From Candidatus Kapaibacterium sp. (GTDB taxonomy: Bacteria; Bacteroidota; Ignavibacteria; Kapaibacteriales; UBA2268): 64,000 nucleotides of DNA. Of this stretch, positions 9,106-15,260 are shown in pieces. How positions within the stretch are numbered: position 1 is the stretch's first letter; each line of letters begins with the position of its first letter. Below the pieces are notes generated by a model. The model saw only the letters and a list, made by a program, of their open reading frames with translations. It searched no databases and had not been told where the DNA came from. The position numbers were made by a program, and so were the translations under genes. The DNA is taken from assembly GCA_026390695.1 (NCBI GenBank), contig JAPLFL010000052.1, positions 1-64,000 on the forward strand. Reading direction: 5' to 3'.

Positions 9106-9270
9106 ATCATCATGAATTTCGCAATAAAAATTGTTTTGTCTTTTTCAACCGTAGGGCAAACAAGAGTCAACGCTTACAAAGAAACTATCCCCTTAATACC
9201 TTGCCACCTATTAACAAGTCCGGATAACGCAATAGAAACTATTTAAAATAAATAATTATTTATTGATAAA

Positions 9271-9522
9271 TTCAAATCACGAATCTAAGACTTCAAATCA
9301 CAAATCTAAGCTTTCAAATCACAAATCTAAGACTTCAAATCACGAATCTAAGACTTCAAATCACAAATCTAAGCTTTCAAATCACAAATCTAAGACTTCA
9401 AATCACAAATCTAAGGCTTCAAATCACAAATCTAAGACTTCAAATCACAAATCTAAGCTTTCAAATCACAAATCTAAGACTTCAAATCACAAATCTAAGA
9501 CTTCAAATCACAAATCTAAGAT
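9271..9522. repeat. Minisatellite, 21-bp period, 12 units
   Basis: Twelve head-to-tail units beginning TTCAAATCAC and ending AATCTAAG(A/G/C)(C/T). Variation is limited to a few fixed positions (CGAATC or CAAATC; AAGAC, AAGCT, AAGGC), with GAC/GCT variants in a higher-order pattern, showing expansion by multi-unit duplication. No unique spacers exist, so it is not a CRISPR. Confidence 0.92.
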
Positions 9523-9555
9523 ATAATTATTTCAAAAGTAAAATATATATCAAAA

Positions 9556-9633
9556 TTGTCATTCCTACGAATGCAGAAATCTCCTAAATGCCATAGATGT
9601 GGATTCCTGCATTTACAGGAATAACAATCCAGT
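9556..9633. repeat. Degenerate copy of the valS-type palindromic element
   Basis: TTGTCATTCCTACGAATGCA on the left and GATTCCTGCATTTACAGGAA on the right are imperfect inverses, matching the arms of the element inside valS at 13274-13380 with several changes. Confidence 0.75.
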
Positions 9634-12428: not shown

Positions 12429-15260
12429 TCACCCCAACCCCGCCAGATTCTCCTTTACCTTCACCAGCGCAGATCCCAAGTCTATTAATTTCTTGCGCTC
12501 AAAATCAACTATTTCCGGTTTGGCATTGGCAACGAATTTCTCATTTCCGAGTTTTGCATTGGTTCCGCTGATGTTGCGCTCAAGACGCTCCAATTCCTTC
12601 TGCAAACGCTCACGCTCTTTGTCAATATCAATTGTTCCACCGGTCTCAACAAAAATTTCAACTTCGCGAACAACGGAATTGAGGGAAATAGCCGGTTTTT
12701 CCGCTTGTTCGGTTATATTTACTGCAGAACATTTTGCAAGAACTGCAACTAATTCCGATTCTCCCTCAAAAAATTTCAGAAGATCATTTTCTTTTATCGA
12801 AAGACTTACAGGCAACTTGATATTCGGCTGAATATTAGCTTGTGCCCGAAGCTTACGAATCTCCTCAACCACATTCTGAAGCAATTCAAAACGAATTTCA
12901 GTATCGCTATTTACATGATCCGTAATAGCTTCCGGGAATTTCTGCAAACTAAGCGATGTATCTTCATCAAAATTATTTATTATATGCCAGATTTCCTCGC
13001 TGATAAAAGGCATCACCGGATGAAGCAAGGACAAAATTCCGCCATAAATTTCAATTGCAAAGTTAATATGAGCAATTTGCTCATTAACATCCGAACAATT
13101 ATTTATTTCAACCTTCAGTATTTCAATATACCAATCGCAGAAATCGCGCCAGATAAAATCATATAATATTTTGGAATAATCATTAACTTTATATTGAGTT
13201 AAAGATGTTTCAATTCGTTCGATAGTATGATGGAAACGAGATAATATCCATTTGTCGGAATTAGAAAATTTCATGTCATTCCTGCGAATGCAGGAATCCA
13301 TATCCTTGCTGTCATTAGTGTGCATACAGGAATCCCCTGTTTCTACGCTCAAGGGGATTCCTGCATTCGCAGGAATGACAGCCTCTTCTTTCCCTTCCTT
13401 AGTAAGGAGGGGTAAGGGGTGGTTTCCATCATTCTCCAAAATCATATCCCTCTTCATTATCAAAAAGCGTCCGGCATTCCATATCTTATTCGCAAAATTA
13501 CGTCCTAATTCCATCGATGGAATATCCTGTGTTTCGACATTCACATCCATTCTCACATCCTGCCCAAGCGGCGAAAGATAAAGCATGGTGAAACGAACTG
13601 CATCTGTCCCATATCTTTGAATCACGTTCAACGGGTCGGGGGAATTGCCCAATGATTTGGATAATTTACGTCCTTCACCATCACGAATCAAACTTGTAAA
13701 ATAAACATCTTTGAATGGAATCTGACCACGGAATTTTAGCGTTGCCATAATCATACGCGCTACCCAAAAGAAAATAATATCGGGAGCTGTCACCATCAGA
13801 TCTGTTGGTAAAAATTTGCTAAGTATCTCGTTATCCTCGGTTTTACCGTCAGCAAGCCAATTCATTGTGGTCATTGGCCAGAGCCATGATGAAAACCATG
13901 TGTCAAGCACATCTGGGTCTTGGGTGAGCGGAGTACCTTCTGGCAGATTCATTTTCTTGCAGGCTTCGGCTTCATCACGGGCAGCGGTGAAGCGGCCATC
14001 AGGAGCATAATAAACCGGTATGCGGTGTCCCCACCAAAGCTGACGCGAAATACACCAATCACGAATACCGGTCATCCAATGCTCAAAAGTTTTTACCCAA
14101 TGATTTGGATAAAATCTGATTTCTCCATCTTGGACGGCTTTAAGTGCTGGCTCGGCAAGAGGTTTCATGCTCACAAACCATTGATCGGAAAGATATGGTT
14201 CAACAGCCTCACCACCGCGCTGAGAAAAACCGACATTGTGAGTGTAATTCTCTATTTTTTCAATAAGATCAAGTTCTTTTAATTTCTTCAGAACTGCTTT
14301 ACGTGCTGCAAATCGTTCCATACCCTGAAATTCACCGGCCAATTCATTCAGAGTTGCGTCAGGATTAATAGCATTCGGCATTGGCAGATTATGGCGCAAA
14401 CCCACTTCAAAATCGTTCGGATCGTGGGCGGGCGTAATTTTCACGCAACCTGTTCCGAATTTGGGATCGGCATAATCATCGGCTATAATTTCAATTTCCT
14501 TATTAATTATCGGCACCAAAACTTTTTTGCCGATTTTATCTTTAAATCTATCATCATTCGGATTTACGGCAATGGCAACATCTCCGAAAATCGTTTCCGG
14601 CCGGACAGTTGCAACACATAAATATTCATCAGTCCCAACATATTTATATCTCAATGTATAAAGATGCTCCTGCACTTCGCGGAACTCAACTTCTTCATCC
14701 GAAAGTGCGGTAAGAGAAAGCGGCGACCAGTTGATAATCCTTTTGCCTTTATAAATCAAGCCTTCATCGAACAGTCGTATAAAAACATCTTGAACAGCTT
14801 TGGATGCGCCTTCCTCCAATGTGAAGAGCAGACGATCCCAATCGCAGGAGATGCCAAGCTGACGCAATTGTTGCAAAATGATTCCACCGTACATATCCTT
14901 CCATTTCCAGACTTGCTCAAGGAATTTTTCGCGTCCTAATTCGTGACGGTTAGTGCCTTGATTCTTCAGTTCTTTTTCGACACGAGCCTGAGTTGCAATA
15001 CCGGCATGATCATAACCCGGAAACCAGCAGGCTTCGTATCCGTGCATTCTTTTATGACGTATGTAAACGTCTTGCAGGGAGTTATTCAGGACATGCCCGA
15101 AATGTAACATTCCGGTAATATTTGGAGGAGGCATTAAAATCGAATAAGGCTTTTTATCGCTTTTTTCAGATGCTGCATAAATATTGTTTTTTTGCCAAAC
15201 GTTACGCCATTTATCTTCGATGTCGCTTGGAGAATAAGTTTTTGGAAATTCTTTTGCCAT
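12429..15260 (-). CDS. valS: Valyl-tRNA synthetase with in-frame palindromic-element insertion
   Basis: Class I synthetase of 943 residues that charges tRNA-Val. Seen: the HIGH-type motif PPPNITGMLHFGHVLN at about 44-59, the editing (CP1) domain at about 200-350 with CVATVRPETIFGD and GTGCVKITPAHDPNDFE, the WW...HRIPVYY region near 409, the KMSKS-type motif GRKLSKSLGN at 530-539, the anticodon-binding domain from about 670, and a C-terminal coiled-coil arm (DKERERLQKELERLERN). Between the catalytic core and the anticodon-binding domain, residues about 612-665 read PLPLLTKEGKEEAVIPANAG and on to CIRRNDMKF, which is a translated palindromic repeat rather than synthetase sequence. The frame is intact. 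Confidence 0.95.
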   Translation of the reverse strand: MAKEFPKTYSPSDIEDKWRNVWQKNNIYAASEKSDKKPYSILMPPPNITGMLHFGHVLNNSLQDVYIRHKRMHGYEACWFPGYDHAGIATQARVEKELKNQGTNRHELGREKFLEQVWKWKDMYGGIILQQLRQLGISCDWDRLLFTLEEGASKAVQDVFIRLFDEGLIYKGKRIINWSPLSLTALSDEEVEFREVQEHLYTLRYKYVGTDEYLCVATVRPETIFGDVAIAVNPNDDRFKDKIGKKVLVPIINKEIEIIADDYADPKFGTGCVKITPAHDPNDFEVGLRHNLPMPNAINPDATLNELAGEFQGMERFAARKAVLKKLKELDLIEKIENYTHNVGFSQRGGEAVEPYLSDQWFVSMKPLAEPALKAVQDGEIRFYPNHWVKTFEHWMTGIRDWCISRQLWWGHRIPVYYAPDGRFTAARDEAEACKKMNLPEGTPLTQDPDVLDTWFSSWLWPMTTMNWLADGKTEDNEILSKFLPTDLMVTAPDIIFFWVARMIMATLKFRGQIPFKDVYFTSLIRDGEGRKLSKSLGNSPDPLNVIQRYGTDAVRFTMLYLSPLGQDVRMDVNVETQDIPSMELGRNFANKIWNAGRFLIMKRDMILENDGNHPLPLLTKEGKEEAVIPANAGIPLSVETGDSCMHTNDSKDMDSCIRRNDMKFSNSDKWILSRFHHTIERIETSLTQYKVNDYSKILYDFIWRDFCDWYIEILKVEINNCSDVNEQIAHINFAIEIYGGILSLLHPVMPFISEEIWHIINNFDEDTSLSLQKFPEAITDHVNSDTEIRFELLQNVVEEIRKLRAQANIQPNIKLPVSLSIKENDLLKFFEGESELVAVLAKCSAVNITEQAEKPAISLNSVVREVEIFVETGGTIDIDKERERLQKELERLERNISGTNAKLGNEKFVANAKPEIVDFERKKLIDLGSALVKVKENLAGLG
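13266..13430. repeat. Palindromic element inserted in frame in valS
   Basis: Arms at 13274-13299 and 13355-13380 are a perfect 26-bp inverted repeat (left arm starts TGTCATTCCTGCGAATGCAG). A third, diverged copy (GTCATTAGTGTGCATACAGG) lies between them, and a second element with CCTTAGTAAGGAGGGG lies beside it at about 13390-13425. The insert keeps the valS frame open. A degenerate relative is at 9556-9633. Confidence 0.93.

Follow-up and report, generated by a model that had tools for sequence, protein, structure and literature searches.

The CGTC superfamily of REP elements includes a CGTC-1 type that, as described by Di Nocera et al. (2013; PMC3733652), carries an unpaired CGTC tag (often TGTC), an 8-bp stem beginning with AT, a 4-nt loop, and a short tail that is mostly CCA. 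According to that account, CGTC repeats are found chiefly as head-to-head dimers and have no transposase, their hosts include Chlorobi and Bacteroidetes, and the genes listed as carrying in-frame copies include those of tRNA synthetases; for REPs outside genes, the authors propose a role as post-transcriptional elements. The same source assigns the Rickettsia conorii palindromic elements RPE-4 and RPE-6 to the superfamily (RPE-6 to CGTC-1), and the Neisseria dRS3 element to CGTC-1. A R. conorii guanylate kinase carrying an insert is active with altered substrate affinity, according to work reviewed in PMC2229807.

Here we describe a repeat inside the valyl-tRNA synthetase gene (valS) of Candidatus Kapaibacterium sp., found in a stretch of 64,000 nucleotides that was analysed as a whole (the window). 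Judged by its sequence, it is a TGTC-tagged, head-to-head REP dimer of the CGTC superfamily, CGTC-1 type. Its arms read TGTC-ATTCCTGC-GAAT-GCAGGAAT-CC, with TGTC at the outer end, an 8-bp stem beginning with AT, and a 4-nt loop; head-to-head dimers predominate, tail-to-tail arrangements are rare, copy number is high, and no transposase was found linked to the repeat. Tag, stem, loop, dimer arrangement, lack of a dedicated transposase, and in-frame copies within genes (including tRNA synthetases) are thus all shared with CGTC-1. In contrast to CGTC-1 as described in that account, the host lineage appears to be different, many intergenic copies are surrounded by MITE-like shells, arms are added in frame in 36- or 42-bp steps, and the tail, though short, is CCC or CTCC in those copies that were listed.

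As with the Rickettsia palindromic elements (Ogata et al. 2000, 2002, as presented in PMC2229807 and PMC10969869), a palindrome lies in frame in conserved protein genes, here in ten open reading frames recognised by Pfam. RPE-1-type elements are longer and have a sequence of their own; the likeness drawn here is one of description and of the RPE-6 assignment in PMC3733652; nearly half of the R. conorii elements are reported in open reading frames, whereas about 9% of the sites sampled here are. Similarly, dRS3, found in Neisseria mostly in large clusters, is likened to our element through its CGTC-1 assignment and not by sequence. The kind of element is a known one, from Rickettsia and some other bacteria; what is new is the host and the heaviness of the case.

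The insert in valyl-tRNA synthetase

The features of the locus, and a decayed relative nearby, are as follows.

12429-15260, minus strand: valS, valyl-tRNA synthetase (943 aa), a single intact open reading frame and the sole ValRS found in the genome
13275-13424, minus strand: extra block in ValS, residues ~613-662 (NHPLP...RRND), ~50 aa, 150 bp, placed by alignment with relatives, structure 1gax, and AlphaFold
13274-13299, plus strand: REP arm 1, TGTCATTCCTGCGAATGCAGGAATCC, with TGTC tag, 8-bp stem ATTCCTGC/GCAGGAAT, and 4-nt loop GAAT
13310-13335, plus strand: diverged tandem copy of arm 1 (81%), 36 bp (12 codons) from arm 1
13355-13380, minus strand: REP arm 2, head-to-head, 46 nt start-to-start from the arm at 13310, as in other coding dimers
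13381-13424, minus strand: second, unrelated palindromic repeat, core CACCCCTTACCCCTCCTTACTAAGGAAGGG, translated NHPLPLLTKEGKEE
9557-9626: decayed intergenic head-to-head REP dimer, 2-3 mismatches per arm, with recurrent module M8 on its right

The Pfam architecture of ValS is complete (tRNA-synt_1 at 18-572, Anticodon_1 at 669-818, Val_tRNA-synt_C at 878-943), and the extra block falls between the end of the core domain match and the start of the anticodon-binding domain. ValS is present in all 40 genomes searched, our own and 39 relatives; matches in the relatives typically stop at about residue 603-617 and restart at about 649-669. In an alignment of loci from these relatives and from a GTDB-wide search, the linker from ..FLIMK to ..SDKWILSR has ~15-30 residues in the relatives displayed and ~65 in this ValS. 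The T. thermophilus enzyme (1gax) aligns from residues 4-606 to its own 2-595, and then from 668-942 to 606-861, with about ten residues of its own in between. The original prediction had placed about 54 additional residues (612-665) in the linker between core and anticodon-binding domain: the block is real and absent from the relatives aligned, and its extent is revised to ~50 residues (613-662). In an AlphaFold model built on a 26-sequence alignment (mean pLDDT 87.5), residues 615-661 form the sole segment with pLDDT below 50, bracketed by predicted helices at 581-610 and 667-688; the extra residues are thus modelled as a disordered, floppy loop, which the protein appears to tolerate.

The other ValS matches listed in this genome come to one frame of ~1,080 aa with 27-29% identity, on contig C117. 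Since no other ValRS is listed and the 4.63-Mb genome has an estimated completeness of 100%, the insert-bearing enzyme is presumably functional and the working ValRS of the cell.

At the DNA level, the two outer arms (26 nt each, 55 nt between them) are 100% complementary, and both are identical to the nucleotide consensus; the window holds four matches to the arm, against a mean of 0.00 in shuffles. The perfect inverted repeat, and the diverged third copy in its loop, were rightly recognised from the letters. The ValS copy can be described as a dimer (13310-13380) plus one 36-bp step, that is, a duplication of one arm. The neighbouring second element likewise bears out the prediction, with 13392-13421 matching CACCCCTNNCCCCTCCTTNNTAAGGAGGGG with one mismatch. 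It has two copies in this genome (the other at C20:65439), the relatives G014, G006 and G015 hold a few more, and a blastn search returned no further copy; a second family as abundant as the REP was therefore ruled out.

We consider it very probable that a REP dimer of the CGTC/TGTC kind was inserted in the linker of the sole valS, beside or together with the second palindrome and with one arm duplicated, and that ValRS remains functional with ~50 disordered residues. The dimer would be non-autonomous and would insert at many places in the genome, and in the valS linker one arm would have been duplicated in the 36-bp step. The dimer is stop-free in two of the three frames (in the third, a stop interrupts the right arm), its arms being translated as VIPANAGI / DSCIRRND or SFLRMQES / IPAFAGMT. 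The full length inserted is divisible by three, and the ValRS frame stays open. Only in-frame, stop-free insertions in tolerant loops would persist in genes.

Coding copies and the reading frame

Long open reading frames contain 10 of the 110 sampled REP sites, and all ten frames have a Pfam match: ValS, an Mre11/SbcD-like phosphoesterase, adenine deaminase, a Type ISP restriction enzyme, acetoacetyl-CoA synthetase, a glycosyltransferase, apolipoprotein N-acyltransferase, NadE, a glutathionylspermidine-synthase-like protein, and purine nucleoside phosphorylase. At least nine protein genes besides valS are thus decorated by an in-frame REP; that the frame is kept had been pointed out for valS by comparison with the Rickettsia elements. 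Alignments to solved structures break at the REP and resume beyond it for acetoacetyl-CoA ligase and purine nucleoside phosphorylase, and that of NadE ends near it. In some of the other decorated genes, such as that of purine nucleoside phosphorylase, the repeat residues have diverged.

Several of these frames hold further repeats. In the NadE frame (L206:2012-2352; G000:C41:50011-50351), copies of a 42-bp unit, GDSCIRRNDSDDTS, form a long array that keeps the frame and includes a run of N; adenine deaminase (L005:1323-3107), whose REP lies near the N-terminus, has another repeated stretch, NPPLKNGE...EAPFFKGGLGVSG, which separates its catalytic domain from the C-terminal one. This stretch and the SHPFPKGE... 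of the Type ISP frame both look like translated repeats.

Coding and intergenic copies differ in arithmetic. Dimer spacing is 46 nt in all nine coding cases, compared with 39 of 84 intergenic ones (Fisher P = 0.0027), and tandem steps are multiples of three in 12/12 coding versus 19/46 intergenic instances (P = 0.0002; the coding steps stem from few genes, so this test overstates independence). Furthermore, long open reading frames cover ~85% of the window but account for only about 9% of the sites sampled, and therefore most coding insertions have been removed or avoided. Insertion followed by selection on the frame fits both the spacing and step bias and the scarcity of the REP in open reading frames.

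A stem of 26 bp in the valS mRNA might instead slow ribosomes or tune mRNA stability, and the predicted fold of the region is strong (-73.4 kcal/mol, z = -8.8), in keeping with the post-transcriptional role that PMC3733652 proposes for extragenic REPs. The stem is, however, a consequence of the sequence being palindromic, no Rfam family scores above its gathering threshold at the site, and the frame selection of coding copies indicates that the constraint lies in the protein, so that we consider an action at the RNA level quite unlikely. We hold it very unlikely that the insert was co-opted for a new function of ValRS (in interaction, regulation or localisation) and is kept by selection for it: it is stop-free in an essential enzyme, and the divergence of repeat residues in genes such as that of purine nucleoside phosphorylase indicates that insertions can persist for long, yet ten unrelated proteins share its peptide, disorder is predicted for it, and two outer arms that equal the nucleotide consensus exactly give no sign of tailoring at the protein level. 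Since unrelated proteins, ten in all, carry the insert and it is predicted to be disordered, we infer that it is neutral. Under the reading of a tolerated REP insertion, the enzyme would work, the insert would be tolerated and not useful, and the dimer would have moved as a unit by a trans-acting enzyme or by recombination.

Copies between genes and routes of spread

Across 4.63 Mb, the arm pattern gives 246 + 211 matches at up to 3 mismatches (a reversed-pattern control gives 0), or about 450 arms; an exact 25-mer of arm 1 occurs at ~100 places among the matches listed. The census of sites samples stretches of the genome and favours copies that have a perfect arm: simple head-to-head (+-) dimers make up 52 of 100 sites sampled, with start-to-start spacing of mostly 46 or 47 nt, -+ neighbours are nearly absent, and extra arms are often added in 42- or 36-nt steps. 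A single-arm pattern has matches in 10 of 40 genomes including our own, which has 213 + 179, the next having 40 + 42. A strict dimer pattern finds 63 dimers in our genome and one to three in five others, among 395 drawn from the phylum.

REP copies lie within ~150 bases of the ends of contigs C1, C12, C24, C60, C87 and C108 of this genome (G000), and the REP probably breaks the assembly at several contig ends. An artefact of assembly or binning could thus be imagined for valS in a draft genome of 129 contigs, several of which end at REP copies. The valS site nevertheless lies 13 kb inside a 116-kb contig with the frame intact on both sides, and nine other genes share the frame-keeping pattern; such an artefact is exceedingly unlikely.

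The decayed intergenic relative had been foreseen at 9556-9633 and is a head-to-head dimer at 9557-9626. A tandem array of a 21-bp unit (9208-9560), one frame of which reads SNHKSKT repeats, directly adjoins it. The original prediction also held that the element moves between coding and non-coding sites: it is present in both, and its mobility is suggested by copy number and scattered sites. Pairs of empty and occupied sites were not found at the DNA level among the genomes compared (none of the same genus), and target-site duplications of at least 4 nt beside the dimers did not exceed shuffled pairing, unlike what is expected of a MITE. Paired inverted REPs, near-fixed spacing and dispersal as one unit recall the REPIN / REP-RAYT systems (PMC3116915, PMC8266576), from which our element differs in its tag (TGTC, not GTAG) and in that the repeat flanks none of the four Y1_Tnp matches in the genome; a REP dimer lies ~0.9 kb from one of them, and none near the other three in the stretches read. 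Movement driven by a RAYT was accordingly rejected.

Flanks belonging to recurrent module families are found at 72 of the 92 intergenic sites; the other 20 are bare, as are 8/8 coding sites tested (Fisher P = 1.7e-5). There are ~13 families with three TIR-like ends (GAGGCTGTCTCAAAAGCC, GAGACTGTGTGAAAAC and TTATATCRTTTCCT), left and right modules are nearly always different (same-module pairs, 1/82), and one recurrent composite is exactly 131 bp long in 10 of its 13 occurrences. Most intergenic dimers are thus the core of concentric, nested MITE-like palindromes (for example L023:1400-1660, L166:1900-2150 and L011:1400-1680). Shells ending in GAGACTGTGTGAAAAC usually have one half of a split REP arm on each side, several with a 4-bp target duplication, and look as if inserted at REP centres. 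A parent transposase of the shells was not found among PF00872 and PF13751 matches in the genome: an IS256-type parent (PF00872) for the GAGACTGTGTG shell has no match, and an IS1182-type parent (PF13751) for the GAGGCTGTCTC shell has one, at a locus without such ends.

The frequency of module flanks and the composite of fixed length could mean that a MITE bounded by terminal inverted repeats brought the REP into valS at its core, the shell being lost later, which we regard as unlikely in view of the bare coding sites and the 20 bare intergenic ones. Because these sites are bare, the dimer seems able to spread alone. Tentatively, one dimer core may spread in two ways: bare, also into genes, where the reading frame would filter it, and in the middle of several unrelated MITE-like shells. 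These shells would insert into one another close to their symmetry axes, building nested palindromes between genes; if so, the REP would be a module exploiting more than one mobilisation route.

With the insert in valS, protein-coding palindromes, of which Rickettsia offers the best-known examples, are now seen in an essential aminoacyl-tRNA synthetase and other core enzymes of an Ignavibacteria-like lineage, together with a quantitative signature of frame filtering, with 46-nt spacing only and tandem steps in threes. There is also a warning for annotation: strings such as VIPANAGIP...CIRRND or SFLRMQES...IPACAGMT in proteins are translated repeats, not domains.
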